64,000 bases of DNA. It comes from an uncultured Methanomicrobiales archaeon (lineage in GTDB: Archaea; Halobacteriota; Methanomicrobia; Methanomicrobiales; Methanospirillaceae). The DNA is taken from assembly GCA_903832665.1 (NCBI GenBank), contig CAILCG010000022.1, positions 62,001 through 126,000 on the forward strand, read 5' to 3'. This document shows positions 26,367 to 63,181 of the stretch, piece by piece. Below the pieces are notes generated by a model. It saw only the letters and a program-made list of their open reading frames with translations. It was not told where the DNA came from and did no database searches. The translations under genes and the position numbers were made by a program. Within the stretch, counting starts at the first letter, position 1. Each line of letters opens with the position of its first letter.

Positions 26367-27929
26367 TTAAGCAGCAACTGCTGCCGGCTGCTGCTTGCCG
26401 GACTGCACCTGCATGAGGACCATTACGATAAGCGAGATCGGGAGCGCAATGACTATCGGATCGACAGCAGTCGACGGTGATCCGAGAAGCGTGACCTTTT
26501 CGAAAATTGCCTGGCAAAGGCCAAGAGATTTTGCTTCTGCCGCGTGGATGAAAGCGGTCCAGAGGAACCAGATTACTGCACCGGTTACCATGCTGTAGAG
26601 CGCCGCTTTCGTGGATGGTGCTTTTGCATAGACTCCCACCGCAAAGGCCGGGAGGAATGCGCATGCACAAAGTCCCATGAACATGGCAGTTGCCCGGGCG
26701 ATGATGCTGATTGGCAGCATAAATGCGAGCACCGTTGAAACGACCATCATCAGCACAATGCCGTACTGGTGTGCCCGCATCGACAGGGCACACTCTTTAC
26801 CCCGACCCCAGAGATCGCACACCAGTGCCGTACCCATCGCATAGTAGAGTGCACTGAGGGTGGACATGGCGGCTGCAAGCAGAGTGAGCATGAAGATAAT
26901 GACAAAGAGATCCGGCATTGCCCTGTTAATGAAGAGCGGGATGATGGAATCGACATTTCCCCCTGCAGCATCAAGAGCGATCTTGCCAGTGGTCTGGTAG
27001 AAGTACACATTGGATAGTGCTCCGACCGTGAACGCGACTCCGGTCATCATCAGGATGAACGGCCCGCCAACGAGCACTGCGCGGTTCAGGGTTATTATCC
27101 TTTGCCGTCATGAATCGCACGACCAGCTGGGGCTGGGCAAGCACGCCGATCCCCACTCCCATGACAATTGTCGTGATAAGGGTGAACCACATCGGGGATC
27201 CAAGTACCGGCATGGATGTCCACCCGGTCATTCCCTGATCTGCAAGTGCTTTGGGAACGAGATGTGCCATATTCGTGAGCGCTGCAGAACCTGCGGTAAA
27301 CCTGCCCACTGCAATCAGGGTGAGGGTGAGGAGGACAATCATCCCGATCAGCATGATCGTGCTCTGGAAGGCGTCCGTGTACATCACGGCAATGAGTCCT
27401 CCGAACACTACGTAGACTGCGGTGATCAGGGCAAACAGGATCAGCGATGTGGAGTAAGGAATACCGAGTGTTGGCTCAATGAACCGTGCTCCTCCGATAA
27501 GGATGGCGGCTGTGTAGAGTGGCATCGAGACGACAATGATGAAGCCGGCAATGTATTGCAGGAGCGGGGATTTGTAGAGTTTGCACATCAGGTCCGGAAA
27601 GGTGACTGCGGAAATCGCTGGCCGATCTCCCGGGTCTTCTTGCCGAACAGGACGAATGCCAAGAGGATGCCAAGACCAATGTTTAAGACCGTAAGCCAGA
27701 TGAGTCCCATACCCATGGTCGCCGCCGACCCGCCAAACCCGATGATGGCTGACGTGGATATGAAGGTGGCACCGTACGAAAACGCAATAATGACCGGGTG
27801 ACTGTCGCGGCCTGCAACCAGATAATCTTCGGCGTTCTTCGTCTTTTTGTACCCAATGTAGCCGATGATGAGCGTTGCTGCAAGGTAGATCAGGACCAGT
27901 GCTGCCATGGAGACCGGGTTAACTGCCAT
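26367..27929 (-). pseudogene. Sodium:solute symporter (SSS) family transporter, broken by two frameshifts
   Basis: Three overlapping frames make one transporter of about 520 residues with some 12-13 membrane helices. The N-terminal piece has the SSS feature KNAEDYLVAGRD; the middle piece has GGLIAVMYTDAFQ; the C-terminal piece ends GKQQPAAVAA. Frame changes are near 27612-27614 (one T missing from a TTT, minus strand) and near 27091-27095. Homology on both sides of each break is uninterrupted, which points to consensus errors. aaggaggg precedes the ATG by eight bases. A 41-aa accessory protein overlaps its start. Substrate unknown; could be proline or another organic solute. Confidence 0.8.
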
Positions 27930-41249: not shown

Positions 41250-41948
41250 TCAGAACACATTTGCTTCTGAATAGACCATGACCTGGTCCTGCTCGATCTC
41301 ATACGGTTTGATCTCGCGTGAGTGTGCTGACATCCGCATCTTGACCACTTCGAGTGCAAGATGCACATCGGTTAGATCAGAAGGCCGGACATACCGGAGC
41401 AGGATTACCGTATCGGACAGGTACTCGATCAGCCCGTGACGACTGGAAAAAACATTGTCCCGGTGAGTCTCTGAGGTCATCATGATGGTGCAGTCACGGT
41501 CACGAAGTCCTTCGATAAACCGGTACATCTCCTGTCTTCGTTCCGAATCGGTATTGAACAGATCTTCAAAGAGGGAGATTGGATCGATCACAACCCGGCT
41601 GGCCTTCACTTCTTCAATAAGTTTTGGCAGTTCGTTTTTGATCCGGTTGTTGGCAACATTGAAGTCTGTGGGATCGAGCTTGATTACGTAGAGGGATTTG
41701 TTCAAATAAGGGGTAATATCCCATCCTTTCAGCTTCATGTAGGAAAGGATTCTCTCTTCGCGTTCCTCGAGGCTGATGTAAATGATCCGCTCCCCTTTTT
41801 TCAGTCCGTCCCAGACGAATTCAAGGGAAAATGTAGTTTTTCCGGTACCGTAAGTACCGATTATTGCGCATATGCTGCCGGGAATAAGTCCCCCTCCAAG
41901 CATATCGTCCAGACCAAGGATTCCCACTTTTACCCGCTCGGGAATCAT
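41250..41948 (-). CDS. KaiC-like RecA-superfamily ATPase
   Basis: 232 residues. Walker A is GTYGTGKT (about residue 31), followed by YISLEE and Walker B VVIDPISLF. This single-domain KaiC-like form occurs in archaeal signalling and in the ArlH protein of the archaellum. It overlaps the next KaiC-like gene by four bases. Both are divergent from the secretion ATPase at 42982. Active ATPase by its motifs; the partner is inferred to be the neighbouring secretion machine or the degenerate paralogue. Confidence 0.9.
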   Translation of the reverse strand: MIPERVKVGILGLDDMLGGGLIPGSICAIIGTYGTGKTTFSLEFVWDGLKKGERIIYISLEEREERILSYMKLKGWDITPYLNKSLYVIKLDPTDFNVANNRIKNELPKLIEEVKASRVVIDPISLFEDLFNTDSERRQEMYRFIEGLRDRDCTIMMTSETHRDNVFSSRHGLIEYLSDTVILLRYVRPSDLTDVHLALEVVKMRMSAHSREIKPYEIEQDQVMVYSEANVF

Positions 41949-42747
41949 ATAACCACCCGGATATTGCTCACTTCAAAACCACTGGTAGTTGAGATACGAA
42001 CTGCAAATTTCACCAGATCGCGCTCTTCAAGGTGTGGCATCACACCCCTGAATTTTTCAAAGTACATTACCCGCTGCCGGCGGGAACCGGTACTCTCTTC
42101 CCACCTGAAAAGCATTACTGCGTCGGCAATATCGGAGAGCTCCTTTTCCTGAGATGAATTCAGGATGCCCTGGGTGAGCAGCAGGTAACAGGTAAGCCCC
42201 CGCTCTTTTGAAACCCGCTGCAAGCCCCTGAAAAATCCCATAAGGTTTGACCAGCTGTTGGGTGTATTGGATTGTGTTGCAATATCGGTGACGGAATCCA
42301 TGACAACAAGACTTTGCGGTTTTGCGGAATTGATCACATTTGAGAGCTGGACAAGAACATTTTCATGACCCGCCCTTTTTTGCATTCTTGTAAGGATATC
42401 GCTGTGGCTGTACCACGCATCGGGTACTACGCTGCTGTCAAAATAAAGTTCAGAGAGGTCATCGAACTGTATTGAATCCACGAGCTGGACTACGTTGTCG
42501 ATACGCAATGAATTTACAATCTCCTGTTTTACGTCATCCTTGTGCCGGGTGAATGTGATGTACCGCAGTTCTTCCGGGGCCAGTTTATCTTTGAGCCCCC
42601 CACGGTTTTTTTCATCCAGCAGATTTACCATTGAACTATACACAAACTCGTTGCTGCCTGCCCCGAGATCCCCCAAAAAAAGAATTACTGATCCTGGAGG
42701 GACCCCCCCTCAAGAATTGGATCAAGTGATGAGATCCCGGTAGGCAT
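41945..42747 (-). CDS. KaiC/ArlH-like RecA-fold protein with lysine-less Walker A; N-terminus frameshifted
   Basis: The intact part begins at an internal TTG (42676). The family N-terminus MPTGISSLDPILEGG starts at 42747 with ATG, and one extra G in the G7 run (42703-42709 on the plus strand) joins it as VPPGSVILFLGDLGAGSNEF. In that loop the Lys and Thr of GKT are replaced (AGSNE), so ATP binding or hydrolysis may be lost. Walker-B-like LVVMDSVTD is present. With the break removed the length is about 267. Likely a structural or regulatory partner of the upstream active paralogue. Confidence 0.8.
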
Positions 42748-42825
42748 TTTTGTACTGGCAAATTCCTGCATAATTCCCCGAAACAAATAGAAAAAATTCT
42801 TTCACAGAATCTGTCATGGGTAGTG

Positions 42826-42836
42826 TTATAAATATA
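42826..42836 (-). promoter_or_regulatory. TATA-like box for the KaiC-like genes
   Basis: ttataaatata on the plus strand (tatatttataa on minus) lies about 80-90 bases before the ATG at 42747, in the divergent spacer. Confidence 0.5.
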
Positions 42837-42926
42837 TCTGATCGGTGGTGACATGAACTCCTAGATACTTGGGAGACCTGGCATCCTCGAATTCCTCGGA
42901 ATGACACATAATTATATAGAATGCTC

Positions 42927-42946
42927 TCCCGAATTATATCTCGGGA
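42927..42946 (+). promoter_or_regulatory. Palindrome over a TATA box upstream of the secretion ATPase
   Basis: tcccga (42927-42932) and tcggga (42941-42946) are a perfect 6-bp inverted repeat with the TATA-like attatat between them. An operator at this place would block the TATA-binding protein. Another taattatat lies at 42909-42917. Confidence 0.5.
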
Positions 42947-42981
42947 ATATCTGAAATTTTACGGTAGGGTGCTTGTGCGGT

Positions 42982-44708
42982 ATGCAGATTTCTGAATTCT
43001 TAAACTCACTAAAAAAGTCTCGTGCGGAACAAGGGGCACAGGAACCCGCGAAGTCGCTCACAGATCCAGGAATCCTCCCCACCGGAAGAGCTGCAGAAAA
43101 AACGCCCGCACCAGGCTCCAAAAAACCCGACGCAAGTTACCGTCACTATTTTCACCTGCTCAAGGGAGCAGGGAAATCTGCCGTGGATGAATACGATTTT
43201 GAACGGGATGGTTCGCTTGTCGATGCAACGATTGATGATACATATGAACAGATTGACCAGTACTGGATTGAAAACGGGCGTTCACTCATCATCATTGCGC
43301 TGAATAAAAAGACCAACCAGCGGGAGTATCTCCTGTTCGAACCCTCTCTTTCCGATTTCGAATATGAACTGCTGGAACGTCTTTATGAAGACCTGCGGGA
43401 TGTTCTCATCCTGACCTCGGATGAGATCAAAAAGGATCGCAAGCGTGTGCTTCTGGAAAAGATGCACGGGCTCATTGATAACTACGGTGTTACGCTTAAA
43501 CGATCCACTCTGTACAAACTCCAGTATTTCCTGATCCGGAATTTTATCGGCTGGTCTCGGATTGATCCCCTGATGAAGGATCCCAACCTGGAGGATATCT
43601 CCTGCGATGGCAATAAAGTCCCGCTCTTTCTTTATCACCGGCACTACCGGAATATCAAAACCAATATTGCTTTTGAATCTGATGTACTCAACTCCCTGGC
43701 AATAACGCTCGCCCAGCGTTCGGGGAAACATATCTCCACGGGCTCACCGATGATCGATGCAACGTTGCCGGATGGTTCACGACTCCAATTGACCCTTGGT
43801 ACGGAAGTGACGACCCGGGGGACTTCCTTTACCATACGGAAATTCCGGGAAGATCCGTTCTCCCCCATCGAACTCATGGAGATCGGTACCTTTAATGCCG
43901 ATTCCCTTGTCTATTTCTGGCTCGCAATTGAGAATAACAAAAGCCTTATTTTTATCGGCGGAACTGCTTCAGGAAAGACGACTTCATTGAATGCAGTCTC
44001 CCTGTTCATCCCCCCGGTTGCCAAGGTAGTCAGTATCGAAGATACTCGTGAGATCACTCTTTACCATGATAACTGGATCGCGAGTGTCACCCGGGAAGCC
44101 TTGTCGGAAGGGGGAAATGCCATCACCATGTTCGACTTGCTTCGTGCAGCAATGCGACAACGTCCCGAGTACATTCTTGTAGGGGAAGTTCGGGGTAGCG
44201 AGGCCCAGACACTCTTCCAGGCCATGAATACCGGTCACACCACGTTCTTCACTATGCATGCAGGGAGTGTCGATGCGGCAATCCATCGGCTTGAGAGCGA
44301 GCCGTTGAATGTGCCAAGGAACATGGTGCAGGCGCTCTCGTCAGCGTTCAGGGTCTCATCTATCATGGAACGGAACGTGTCCGGCGCGTCCAGGAAGTTG
44401 TTGAAATAGCCGGCATTGATCCCTCAACGGGGAATCTGCGGGTTAACAATGTCTTTGTCTATGATCCGATAAAGGACAAGTTCAGTTTTACCGGACGATC
44501 CCAGATCTATTCCGATATCGCTGAAAAACGAGGATGGACCCGCGAACAGCTTGAAGCCGAGATCGCAATCAGGAAAAATCTCTTAGAAGAGATGAGAAAA
44601 CAGGGTATTAAGGATTATATCTCGGTTGCTACCCTCTTCCACGCATACAACATTGATGCCAAGGAAGTGCTGGCCCACATCGCTGATCTCCGCAAGGTAA
44701 TCCGATGA
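42982..44708 (+). pseudogene. Type II/IV secretion system ATPase (GspE/VirB11/ArlI family), frameshifted near 44381
   Basis: The first 475 residues are in one frame: an N-terminal domain and the ATPase core with Walker A GGTASGKTT, Asp box SIEDTREI, and Walker B/His box ILVGEVRG and GHTTFFTMHAG. The normal end continues in another frame from about 44381 (RRVQEVVEIAGIDPSTGN...LADLRKVIR), to the stop at 44708. One missing base near gtgtccggcg explains the break. The stop overlaps the next gene by four bases. It powers assembly of a pilus-like or secretion filament; no pilin or prepilin peptidase is in sight. Confidence 0.85.
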
Positions 44709-46644
44709 TCTTCAGGAAATACCTCTGGAAATGGATCCAGCAGGATCCCGTCCGGTATCATGGCCTGCATGCTGATATGATATCCGCCCGGTCAGGGATC
44801 ACCCTTGAGCAGTATCTCTGGCGTACTGTAAAGATCGCTTTTCTTACCGGCATCCTGTTCGCGGTCATTGGCTATTTTTTAAGTATTTTTCTGACAATCC
44901 AGGTCTATTCCGGGAGGGCGGGTATCTACAATGTTTTCAATCTCCAGCTGCCTGTATTGTTTAACTTTGTATACCCTGCAGAATATCTCCAGGCACTCGC
45001 GGTTATCGCTTCGTTTGTTGTCGGGACGTTTATTGGTTATTCAGTCCTCCTGAGCATGCCCGGGTTCGAGAAGAATAATCGCTCGATCAAGATCAATATG
45101 ACCCTGCACAATGCTGTGGCGTACATGTACGCCATGCGGCGTGGGGGTGCCCAGCTGATGACGATCTTCCGGTCACTTTCCGACCGGGCGAACATTTATG
45201 GTGAAGTTGCCCTTGAGTTCCGCCAGATTGTACGGGATGCTGATTTTTTCGGGTACGATGTGGTCACTGCAATACGACACCTGGCTGAAACAACCCCATC
45301 GGAGAAACTCAAGGATTTTCTGGAAGATCTCCTCTCGGTCATTGAAAGTGGTGGGGACATGGGAGAATTTCTTTCCACAAGGGTCCGGTTGTACCAGGAG
45401 GAAGCGCGGTTCGAGCAGAAACAGTTCCTTAATGTCCTTTCAATTGTTGCAGAATCCTACGTGACCCTGTTTGTTGCCGGGCCGCTTTTTTGATCATCAT
45501 CATGGTCGTCATGTTGATGATGGGCGGCAGTGCGGTCATCCAACTGGCATTGATCACCTACGCAATCATCCCTATCGGTTCACTGGTCTTCATTCTCCTG
45601 ATCGACATCATATCGTTAAAGGCCGAAAAGACCTCCCACTATGTAAGGACGAAGTGGCTTCATACCTATTCCGATGTGATCATCTCCAAAAAGAACAATG
45701 AAGAACCGCTGTTTGAACAATTGAAAAAATATGACCAGCTCCGGCATCTCGTCCATTACCTCCGGCATCCACTCGAGAGTTTTGTCAGTAACGTGAATCA
45801 GACACTCTACGTGACGGTCCCCGTTGCTATCCTGTATGTTGTGATCGTGCTGTTGAGTATCCGCCAATACAATTATACCAACATTGAGACGCTCATCAAC
45901 GTGGTCGATGTTCATATTGTTATCGCTCTCCTTATCGTGCTCGTCCCCTATGCGATATTTTACGAGATCTGGTCTCGTAAAGTGCTGGGGATCCAGACGC
46001 TCATACCGGACTTCCTGGAACGTATGGCGGGCATCAACCAGGTCGGACTCACGATTGCCCAGGCAATTGCCATCATGGTGAATACCAATCTTGGACTCCT
46101 GAGTTATGAGATACGGCAGATAAAGCGGGATATGGAATGGGGTGCAAATTTTACCGAGGCCCTGATGAGGTTTGAAGAGCGTGTCAGCACACCTTCAATT
46201 GCACGGACCGTGACTCTTATCACGAAGGCAAGTGAGATGAGCGGCCAGATCGGTGTTGTACTCTCAATTGCATCCAGCGACGCAAAGATGACCGAAGTGC
46301 TCAAAAGGGAGCGCCTCGCCGAGATGTTCATTTATACGGCGATCGTATATCTCGCGTTCTTTGTCTTCCTTTTTGTCGTGGGTGTACTGACAACCCAGTT
46401 TCTCCCGGTGCTCGCGAAACTCACTACTACCGCATTACCAACCTCGGGGGCTTTTTCATCTATTGGTGCAATACCCATCATGACTATCAACCGGCTCCTG
46501 TTCCATGCGTGTCTAGTTCAGGCTCTCTTCTCCGGATTAATCGCCGGGCAGATGGGTGAATCATCCATAGCAGCAGGAGTGAAACATTCCTGTGTACTCC
46601 TGGTAATCGCATTGATTGCCTTCAAATTCATCCTCGTTATTTGA
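44705..46644 (+). pseudogene. TadC/ArlJ-type secretion platform membrane protein, frameshifted in a T6 run
   Basis: Two frames: 44705-45493 and 45490-46644. The first ends after FVAGPLF at a six-T run (45486-45491); one extra T restores FLIIIMVVMLMMGG. The product would have about 646 residues and two repeated T2SSF domains with MRRGGAQLMTIFRSLSDR and MAGINQVGLTIAQAIAIM, each followed by membrane helices. It forms the inner-membrane core of archaeal type IV filament systems and works with the ATPase directly upstream (ATGA overlap). Confidence 0.85.
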
Positions 46645-46712
46645 GGCAGAAAATCTCATTTTAGATAAGATTAAATAATGCACGAGTGATCTCGTAGTGA
46701 GGTGAATGGGAA

Positions 46713-46868
46713 ATGTGTAGTGTTGGCGGGCCTATGGATATCGATATTCCCCCGGATCGGATAAAACCGAAAAGTTACCGTTGCAATGAATGTAGTGAAC
46801 GATTCAAGGGGATCGGGAAAAATCCTATCTGTCCAAGCTGCCAGTCAGAAGACGTGACAGAGATATGA
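46713..46868 (+). CDS. Small zinc-ribbon protein (51 aa)
   Basis: A 51-residue protein with RCNEC and CPSC knuckles (about residues 24-28 and 40-43), and gaggtg about seven bases before the ATG. The N-terminus MCSVGGPMDIDIPPDR is polar. It ends with ATATGA, overlapping the start of the next gene by four bases. Zinc binding is inferred; function unknown. Confidence 0.75.
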   Translation: MCSVGGPMDIDIPPDRIKPKSYRCNECSERFKGIGKNPICPSCQSEDVTEI

Positions 46869-47338
46869 TCTTTCCCCTTGATGATGAGTTTTTACTCATT
46901 TCAGGGAAGCACTCTTTTTTACTGGTTGCAAAGACCCGTACCCGGTTTGCCCTTTGTTTGGAGATCCCTGCCGATGAGTATGTCCAAAGAGTAGATTCTG
47001 GGGATCTCGTAGTCGTTTCTGCACCGGACGGTGGATCTGTTGAACCGGCAGTGATGCTCATCGAACTCGTAAGAACATATCACATGCCGCTGCTCGTTCT
47101 TAAAAAAGGTCACCCGGGATCAAAACGTATCACTCGCGTGATATCTGTCGCACCGGAGATCTCTACCAGTTGCTCGATTCAGCGGGGTACGCACCCTGAA
47201 CAGCACCTTGTCTGTTCGAGTGACGAACTTGCCGGATTAACCCTTACGAGTATCGATGGCGGGGTCAGGATATCCACGATTCCTTCGGGGGTATCACTTA
47301 AAGCAGTAAAATGCTGGATCACGACCGAATTTTCCTGA
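46865..47338 (+). CDS. Conserved protein of unknown function
   Basis: A 157-residue soluble protein without signal or membrane segment. It contains LVVVSAPDGGSVEPAVMLIELVRTYHMPLLVLKKGHPGSKRI in the middle, which suggests an alpha/beta domain, and a second beta-rich part at the end. I recognise no family. Tight overlap with the zinc ribbon indicates a joint function, and both follow the secretion genes by about 70 bases. Confidence 0.7.
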   Translation: MIFPLDDEFLLISGKHSFLLVAKTRTRFALCLEIPADEYVQRVDSGDLVVVSAPDGGSVEPAVMLIELVRTYHMPLLVLKKGHPGSKRITRVISVAPEISTSCSIQRGTHPEQHLVCSSDELAGLTLTSIDGGVRISTIPSGVSLKAVKCWITTEFS

Positions 47339-60431: not shown

Positions 60432-60654
60432 AAGTGATTCTCCTTATGGATGAACCAATAAGAGAGAGCTGGTGGATAAAGATGGTGTGACTTTACAAAA
60501 ATAGAAAGGTTATCGCATTCATCGGATTGAACCAATAGAGTATTTTTTTAAAATTATGGGATAATCCGGAATCCAGTCGTTCCGGGACAGTATTTCATCA
60601 AGCAAAAATTTCAGGTTATTTCCTGCCCATAGGGGAACTGTATCGTTGGTAAAA

Positions 60655-63181
60655 CTATCGCTTGACCAGTTCGACTATGATCAGGTAACCCGCCACGAGC
60701 ACCGCCAGCACTACGAAGAACGAAACCGGCAGTGGGACAAACCCGAACAGGCTGCCAATGATGGTAAATGGCAGGAGACAGGCAATTGCCACGATCGCAA
60801 CTGTACTTGCTACGAGAAGCCGGCTTGGCCTGCTATGATAAAACGGAACAACCCGGGTCCGGATGACAAAGATGACCAGGGTCTGGGTGCAGATCGATTC
60901 CACAAACCACGCTGTCTGGAAGAGTGCAGCATCGGCTGTAAAGACGAATAGCAGGATAAAGAACGTGATAAAATCGAAGACCGAGCTGATGGGGCCAAAG
61001 ATCATGATAAATTTCTTGATGAAATCCATGTCCCATTTCTTCGGTTTGCTGATGTAGGCCTCATCCACATTGTCGGTGGGTATTGTTGACTCCGATATAT
61101 CGTAGAGCAGGTTGTTGAGCAGGATCTGGATCGGGAGCATCGGGAGGAAACGAAGAAAGAGGGAAGCCCCGGCAACAGAGAACATGTTCCCGAAATTGGA
61201 GCTCGTTCCCATCAGGATATATTTCATGGTATTTCCAAACGTTCTCCGTCCTTCAAGCACACCGTCATTGAGGATCCGCAGGTCGTTTTTCAGCAGGATA
61301 ATGTCAGCAGATTCCTTGGCAATATCAACGGCATTTTCAACCGATATGCCAACATCTGCCTCCCGTATTGACGGCGCATCGTTGATCCCATCTCCCATGA
61401 ACCCAACCACATGACCGTTTGTTTTCAGGGCCATCATGACCCGGTTCTTCTGCACCGGGGTCATGCGGGAAAAGATCGTAACGCTCTCGACTACGGGAGA
61501 GCGTTTGCGCGTCCATATGTTCAATATCCTCACTGGTAAGGACTCCCTTTACCACGAGGCCAATCTCTTCGCAGATCTTCTTGGTGACCAGTTCGTTATC
61601 CCCGGTCAGGATCTTCAGTTCAATGCCGGACTGTTCCAGCAGACGGATCGACTCGCGGGCGGTCTCCTTGGGGGGATCGATGAATGTGACAAACCCTGAG
61701 AGGATCATCTCTTTTTCATCGGCAATGGAAAATTTTGTGGTGTCAGCCGGCACAGAACGGTAACATACCGCAAGGGTCCGGAATCCTTCGGCACTCTGGG
61801 CCTGGTAGATCCTGTCGAGTCTTTCCTGCACGATTCCGATCAGCGGCTCGACAGAGCCATTCCTGTCAACGGACGTACAGATCCTGAATATCTCCTCAGG
61901 TGCACCCTTCGACACGATCAGGTTCCGATCCTTATCGGAAACAATGACTGACACCCGTTTCCGGACGAAATCAAAGGGAATTTCGTCGATTTTCCGGAAA
62001 TGATCGATATCGATATGGCGGAACCTGAGAATCGCCTCGTCGAGGGGGCTCTTTAACCCGGTGTCAAAGAAACTGTTGATGAACGAGTACAGCAGGACAC
62101 TCTCGCAGTCGTTTCCCTCGGTATCAAGGTGCTTTACCAGGGCGATCTCGTTTTTGGTGAGCGTGCCGGTCTTGTCCGTGCAGAGCACATCCATGCTCCC
62201 AAAATTCTGGATCGATTCCGGGTGTTTCACGATAGCACCCTTCTTAGACATCGCGATGAAACCCTTGGACAGGTTCAGGGAGAGGATCATCGGCAACAGC
62301 TCCGGTGTCATGCCGACAGCAAGGGCAACGGAGAAGAGCAGGGATTCGAGGATACCGTGCCGGAACATGGCGTTTATGAAAAATACGAAGATGACGAGGA
62401 AGAAGACAAACTTCGACATCAGGTAACTGTATTGTTTAAGTCCCCGCTCGAACTCTGTCTCGGGTGGACGTTCGACAAGGGTTTTTGCCACTTTCCCAAA
62501 TTCTGTTGTAATACCGGTCTTTGTCACCAGGGCAGTGGCCATCCCGCTGACAGCGGACGTTCCCAGGAAAATGTAATTTTCTGCGGCTGTGAGAAGAGTA
62601 CCCGGGTTGGCAGTTCCCGGAAGTTTCTCTACCGGGAAGGGTTCTCCGGTCAGGGACGACTGGTTCACAAAAAAATTACGGGCGGTCAGTATCCGGGCAT
62701 CCGCCGGCACAATGTCTCCCGCAGTAAGCCGGATCAGGTCTCCCGGGACGAGATCTGCAATAGGAAGATCCTGTTCCTTCCCGTCGCGGATGACGGTGGC
62801 CCGGGTAAGGATTTTCTGCCTGAGCAGGTCTGCTGTCTGTTCCGCTTTGTACTCTTGGAAAAAATCCATGGTGACGCTGGCAATAACGATGAAAAAGATA
62901 ATGAGGGCATTGATCAGTTCCCCGACAAACATCGAAATCGCAGCCGCGATGAGCAGGATGATGATGAGCAGGTTTTTGAAATGACCCAGAAACTGGAAGA
63001 TCACCGGGGGTTTCCTGACACGGGAGATGTCATTGTTCCCGTACCGGGTACGGCCTGCCAGTGCCTTTTCCGCAGTCAGTCCTCCCGGGTTGCTGCCAAG
63101 AACAGAGAAGAGTTCTTCTTCAGAAATGATGTGAAACTGCTGCCTGGTCTCGGGTTGTTCCGGCTGTGGTGTGCGTATCAT
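60655..63181 (-). pseudogene. mgtA: MgtA-type magnesium P-type ATPase, frameshifted near 61495
   Basis: About 840 residues over two frames. The first frame has the A-domain motif SLTGEPF, phosphorylation site VLCTDKTGTLTKNE, and a nucleotide domain ending near ILTGDNELV; it loses frame after QTLS at about 61495. The second frame takes over with FSRMTPVQKNRVM, GFMGDGINDAPSIREADVGISVENAVDIAK, and the C-terminal membrane helices. It imports Mg2+ in bacteria (type IIIB P-ATPase). One indel near the gggag run explains the split. Upstream is a cupredoxin gene. Confidence 0.85.

Follow-up and report, generated by a model that had tools for sequence, protein, structure and literature searches.

A clade-2 pilus motor and a divergently encoded KaiC pair with a pseudo-ATPase member form a four-gene unit in Methanomicrobiales

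In the archaellum, ArlH, a protein with a KaiC fold, binds ATP, sits as a hexamer on the secretion ATPase ArlI and departs upon autophosphorylation (PMC8978795), and bacterial PilB motors are likewise controlled through binding partners (PMC11656802). Archaeal type IV pilus (T4P) motors may also stand apart from their pilins: PilB3 of Haloferax works with PilA pilins that are encoded elsewhere, and a 2016 census, in its passages on such loci, describes euryarchaeal clade-2 ATPase/TadC loci without pilins (PMC4858521). The same passages (Makarova et al. 2016) place KaiC ATPases of arCOG01171-01175 near archaeal T4P loci, an association that by description is of the kind treated here, and report arCOG01172/01173 as possibly co-transcribed with VirB11/TadC operons in Methanomicrobia, so that the presence of KaiC beside these operons is known in outline (PMC4858521). 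Here we analyze such a locus in a 64,000-nucleotide stretch (the window; contig CAILCG010000022.1, positions 62,001 to 126,000) from an uncultured Methanomicrobiales archaeon, whose genome is 2.88 Mb in size and 98.8% complete. Two KaiC-like genes, KaiC_B followed by KaiC_A, lie on the minus strand and diverge from plus-strand genes for a T2SSE-type secretion ATPase (PilB) and a T2SSF-type platform protein (TadC). The features are as follows (positions within the window).

41250-41948, minus strand: KaiC_A, a single-domain KaiC-like ATPase with GTYGTGKT, EE, Walker B Asp, KMR and His
41945-42747, minus strand: KaiC_B, a pseudo-ATPase KaiC paralog with the P-loop GDLGAGSNEF
42826-42838, minus strand: TATA-like element on the KaiC_B side of the intergenic region, conserved in a five-genome alignment
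42910-42919, plus strand: TATA-like element on the PilB side, conserved in the same alignment
42927-42946, unstranded: palindrome TCCCGA-N8-TCGGGA, a possible operator upstream of pilB, from the same alignment
42982-44705, plus strand: PilB/GspE-type secretion ATPase of clade 2 (PF00437, borderline PilB3_C, match to 2OAP, tree)
44705-46644, plus strand: TadC/PilC-type platform with two T2SSF domains (PF00482 in both halves)
46713-46868, plus strand: 51-aa zinc ribbon, flanking and outside the module, kept where the four genes are absent
46865-47338, plus strand: 157-aa protein, flanking and outside the module, in 92 of 100 family genomes including module-less ones

The original prediction, made from the letters of the stretch, had described a tandem of KaiC-like genes, one with an intact P-loop (GTYGTGKT) and one of AGSNE type (41250-41948 and, as called, 41945-42676), diverging from a stand-alone secretion ATPase and platform, with a zinc ribbon and a 157-aa open reading frame (ORF) downstream and with no archaellin, pilin or prepilin peptidase next to the module. 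All of this held, the divergent arrangement by way of domain searches, and the stop of KaiC_B overlaps the start of KaiC_A.

KaiC_A, KaiC_B, PilB and TadC form one unit across Methanomicrobiales. The family comparison covered 100 genomes, 58 of them at least 90% complete, in which presence meant KaiC_A over its cut-off, KaiC_B present and an orthologous ATPase at 60% identity or more. These three genes were jointly present or jointly absent in 56 of the 58, and the platform gene is adjacent throughout Methanomicrobiales. The two disagreeing genomes are fragmented: one, in 810 contigs, has the ATPase only, and in the other, in 400 contigs, the KaiC pair lies close to the start of a contig and the ATPase is missing. 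When Methanomicrobiales loci were located via KaiC_B (n = 80), all four genes were found in 64, and in the remaining 16 the missing genes fall past a contig end or a short flank. The co-occurrence survey proposed in the original prediction thus favors the association. That prediction would have been undone by KaiC-like genes occurring without the motor in most relatives; within Methanomicrobiales they do not, and it is outside this order and the Methanocella-like archaea that the KaiC genes are often found with no adjacent motor.

Loss follows the boundaries of the same unit. The locus order is BofA, the KaiC/motor module, the zinc ribbon, the 157-aa gene and an A-type ATPase operon; in two module-less genomes (G060 and G054) the zinc ribbon and the 157-aa gene come directly after BofA, so that exactly four genes are gone, and in a third (G033) BofA is followed by the 157-aa gene. 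The latter gene is present in the family whether or not the module is, and is placed elsewhere in Methanospirillum-type genomes (here and below, lineage labels in '-like' and '-type' were assigned from kinship). Since the zinc ribbon and the 157-aa gene persist regardless of the module, both were rejected as components of it and are neighbors only. As a separate observation, these two genes (46713-47338) keep their place next to the A-type ATPase operon in much of the family, independently of the module, the wider neighbors of which also include Lon and TldD/PmbA.

Judged by its residues, KaiC_A is a catalytic KaiC-like ATPase. It is a member of TIGR03880 (KaiC_arch_3; 348.5 bits, cut-off 249.45), scores 58.5 bits against the NCBIfam ArlH model, below the cut-off of 215, and has KaiC as its best PDB match (165 bits, compared with 28 bits for ArlH). 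Its predicted model (predicted local distance difference test, pLDDT, 86) adopts the fold of the KaiC CI domain (Z score 28), and ArlH was not among the best 50 fold matches, although it may rank below them. In alignment with cyanobacterial KaiC, the GTGKT, the EE pair, the Walker B Asp and a K-M-R...H, which corresponds to the K-L-R...H of CI, all match. The K-x-R...H of KaiC reaches the nucleotide of the neighboring subunit. The catalytic residues are kept across the orthologs tallied (n = 92), with the Walker A Lys present in 92, KxR in 91-92, one acidic residue in 91 and the other in 90. A side observation concerns Methanocorpusculum-like genomes, where KaiC_A is itself degenerate (GTGRT and no EE pair; L156:6485-7225 and L157:6828-7592), so that both members of the pair look inactive there.

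KaiC_B, as far as its sequence can tell, is a member of a phylum-wide pseudo-ATPase family that retains the KxR finger. An intact ortholog matches PF06745 (38.7 bits, cut-off 26.6), and its model, of moderate quality (pLDDT 75), fits ArlH (Z 20-21) and KaiC (Z ~20) equally well. Across about 100 proteins (the P-loop Lys being scored in 98), the P-loop reads GAGxxEF, the Walker A Lys is missing from 93 of 98 (the exceptions observed are Methanospirillum-type), the first catalytic Glu from every protein and the second from nearly every one; the Walker B Asp is kept in 99/100, and the K and R of the finger in 91/100 and 89/100. The active/inactive tandem first read from a single locus is consequently a conserved feature. 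Moreover, the degenerate loop recurs in Methanocella-like, Archaeoglobi-like and haloarchaeal-type homologs, which indicates that it is old and constrained rather than a product of decay, and a sequencing fault was rejected as the cause of the Walker A loss given this phylum-wide conservation. The loss of its own catalytic residues combined with the retention of a neighbor-acting finger gives KaiC_B the look of a non-catalytic member of a putative mixed ring. KaiC_B also shows weak matches, below cut-off, to Elongator (PAXNEB), a family that likewise has the RecA fold and is without P-loop residues.

The motor is a clade-2 PilB3/afGspE-type pilus motor and not an archaellar one. The best solved relative of an intact ATPase ortholog is Archaeoglobus fulgidus GspE (2OAP), at 493 bits compared with 287 for FlaI, and in the ATPase tree the motor branches apart from true ArlI with 100/100 support. 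Against the archaellum-motor model (cut-off 550 bits), the two pieces into which the ATPase of this genome is split score 330 and 57 and intact orthologs approximately 387-414, compared with more than 700 for true ArlI in the same genomes. The two motors are also distributed separately, since six genomes have ArlI and no module motor and four have the module motor and no ArlI over the cut-off. No arlB-G genes were seen among the inspected locus neighbors. Membership of an archaellum is therefore rejected by score, tree and neighboring genes, and the label 'ArlI/ArlJ-like' given to this pair in the original prediction was misleading. PilB3_C is matched at 26.5-27.2 bits (cut-off 27) in the ATPase of the window and that of one further locus (L035), and at 42.5 bits in a Methanocella-like ortholog, and the match to PilB3_N is weak or absent in most ATPases tested.

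Pilins and peptidase are encoded elsewhere, which is a known arrangement for such motors. Ten PF07790 pilins score over the cut-off in this genome, and several have a class III-like start (e.g., KNEAVSPVIG). A second T4P locus, on contig C14 (L056:7114-17063), encodes a prepilin peptidase together with a MinD-like ATPase, a roadblock protein, a second PilB (852 aa, with a long N-terminal extension) and two separate TadC proteins. PF07790 pilins are commoner in genomes with the module (median 8.5 vs 2; 3.4 vs 1.2 per Mb, p = 7e-4), and also when only genomes of the same genus are considered (4.0 vs 0.74 per Mb, p = 0.001); as the genomes are related and of unequal size, this enrichment is support and not proof. 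Archaellin genes were also noted in the same genome (L197:9056-10332 on contig C17 and L198:12030-12599 on contig C13). An ArlI over the cut-off was not found in the assembly despite these genes; the organism may have lost its archaellum motor, or the assembly may lack it.

The joint presence and absence of the four genes indicates that the KaiC pair is probably a dedicated switch for this pilus engine. The fuller proposal, that the locus is a clade-2 pilus motor with its own KaiC control pair acting on PilB as a mixed ring, is one to which we attach about even confidence. According to this proposal, PilB and TadC would build pili from PilA-type pilins that are encoded, and processed by a peptidase, elsewhere, and KaiC_A and KaiC_B would assemble into a mixed ring. 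KaiC_A may hydrolyze ATP or autophosphorylate, and KaiC_B would complete the KaiC_A site through its K-x-R finger and lock the interface. By analogy to ArlH and ArlI, one nucleotide state would let the ring dock on the PilB hexamer and another would release it, and docking and release would decide the timing of pilus assembly. The sequences show the components, their association and their residue pattern, from which ring formation, docking and switching are inferred.

Several points weigh against this proposal. KaiC_A is nearer in sequence to KaiC than to ArlH, and the equivalence of the KxR motifs of the two proteins is a putative one, drawn from the flanking alignment and strand order. The pilin counts could track lifestyle or the size of the genome, and genomes that share ancestry do not count as independent observations. 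The divergent transcription of pair and motor would also fit a promoter-level regulator. Finally, a phylum sample of 295 genomes includes 142 with KaiC_B homologs, almost always a single copy in each, and the pair was found without a nearby motor in six Archaeoglobi-like genomes, at the second of two loci in G170 and in G290, indicating that the pair either predates its link to this motor or can be separated from it. Furthermore, KaiC_B stands alone (loop GAGAREF) in four haloarchaeal-type genomes (L158-L161), with KaiC_A and the motor not nearby. Pairs or KaiC_B proteins without an adjacent motor imply that the pair has some role outside the locus of this motor.

Whether the module is functional in this particular strain is uncertain, since three of its four genes, i.e., all but KaiC_A, carry small deletions in this assembly. 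KaiC_B has a 1-bp deletion at a run of seven G residues (42703-42709) that puts its N-terminus out of frame; the start at 42676 adopted earlier is wrong, as the conserved N-terminus MPTGISSLDPILEGG, beginning at the ATG at 42747 (or at 42771, MQEF...), sits in another frame. In the ATPase gene, 4 bp (AACA) are deleted at ~44337, which splits it into ORFs 42982-44409 and 44340-44705, and a 1-bp deletion at ~45486 splits the platform gene in two. The genes called in the original prediction are real, but the three frame breaks had been overlooked. In the relatives examined each is a single intact ORF, of ~277 aa (KaiC_B), 560-660 aa (ATPase) and ~645 aa (platform), and programmed frameshifting is unsupported in view of these plain single ORFs.

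One explanation is that the module is decaying here, the three deletions marking pseudogenes headed for the clean absence that sister species show. The density of deletions in the window fits such decay (three in ~5.4 kb of module compared with three in ~42 kb of other compared window sequence), as does the lack of the whole module in several relatives of the same genus. However, the ratio of nonsynonymous to synonymous substitution rates past the breaks, measured against G087, is 0.010 for the C-terminal part of PilB, 0.061 for TadC and 0.087 for KaiC_B, which is no higher than between intact relatives. These low values indicate that the breaks are either recent mutations or sequence errors. 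Two other genes in the window are also frame-broken relative to close kin, namely a sodium:solute symporter gene (26370-27929; one deletion of 1 bp and one of 2 bp) and the gene for a P-type cation ATPase (60619-63181; a 2-bp deletion), and these breaks are either draft errors or real decay. That the breaks in the window are always small deletions and extend to these two genes fits errors in a draft sequence, and we regard decay of the module as unlikely, though with some claim to attention.

Among mechanistic alternatives to the mixed-ring switch the weightiest, which we nevertheless hold to be rather improbable, is that the KaiC pair makes no contact with PilB and instead controls, at the level of transcription, the genes for the pilus motor or the pilins, with the help of a DNA-binding partner at the promoter region that the divergent genes share. 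CirA and GvpD are thought to act on transcription in haloarchaea. CirA of Haloferax, which is KaiC-like, has a regulon in common with a transcription factor and influences both motility and the shape of the cell (PMC13286277), and the short, conserved divergent intergenic region of the present locus, with its two TATA-like elements and palindrome, would suit control of this kind. Domain searches, however, found no DNA-binding domain in either KaiC protein. The palindrome was rejected as a pilus-regulon operator, as it is not at the pilin clusters and has three further exact copies elsewhere in the genome. The linkage of the pair to the ATPase and platform genes, and not to pilin genes, better fits direct action on the motor.

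It is more doubtful still that the KaiC pair is an independent signaling module that merely adjoins the motor in Methanomicrobiales. The Archaeoglobi-like pairs without a motor, two of those inspected adjoining aspartate carbamoyltransferase-like genes, and the solitary haloarchaeal-type KaiC_B proteins speak for independence. Set against them are the agreement among 56 of the 58 more complete genomes in having or lacking the genes together, the loss of the module as an exact four-gene block, and the recurrence of the linkage beyond the order, the four-gene layout being found also in Methanocella-like genomes, at one of the two G170 loci and in a Methanocorpusculum-like genome. Lastly, that the locus represents a novel type of filament or secretion system handling a substrate of its own, as the absence of a pilin gene beside the motor might suggest, is very improbable, as the motor is of the clade-2 type, pilin-less loci acting in trans are established for Haloferax PilB3 (PMC4858521), and PilA-type pilins are plentiful in the genome.

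The original designation of an 'uncharacterised type IV filament system' accordingly gives way to a described class of motor, for which the census passages already report both pilin-less loci and KaiC neighbors (PMC4858521). The locus shares with PilB3-PilC3 of Haloferax volcanii and with afGspE, the nearest in sequence to this ATPase, an ATPase and TadC without pilins beside them and PilA pilins and peptidase elsewhere; it differs in its divergent KaiC_B-KaiC_A pair and in an ATPase N-terminus that mostly misses the PilB3_N model. With ArlH-ArlI-ArlJ it has in common a RecA/KaiC-fold partner of a secretion ATPase and platform, the KaiC_B fold matching ArlH, whereas here there are two KaiC partners, one without the Walker A Lys, and no arl genes beside them. 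KaiC_A aligns over its full length with cyanobacterial KaiC, including Walker A, EE, Walker B and K-x-R...H, but it has one domain and not two, KaiA and KaiB were not seen at the locus, and nothing points to a clock. The pseudo-ATPase partner, the four-gene presence/absence unit and the divergent layout are not described in the relevant passages of the 2016 census; relative to those passages, what appears to be added is the behavior as a unit, the pseudo-ATPase family with its loop and finger, and the finding that the two flanking genes lie outside the module (PMC4858521).

A broader and more tentative reading is that an ancient two-subunit KaiC machine, composed of a catalytic member and a GxxGAGxxEF pseudo-ATPase, has in Methanomicrobiales and Methanocella-like genomes become an obligate partner of a PilB3-type motor and would serve as its mixed-ring assembly switch. 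The switching of pilus motors in archaea is little understood outside the archaellum, and a KaiC pair tied to the PilB motor throughout an order is a defined and testable candidate, in which the two KaiC proteins are small and soluble and the structure of a relative of the ATPase has been solved. As the KaiC_B family is phylum-wide, a finding from a single species would also be informative about haloarchaea and Archaeoglobi, and the arrangement suggests that the control of the archaellum by ArlH may be one case of a wider principle of KaiC proteins acting on motors.

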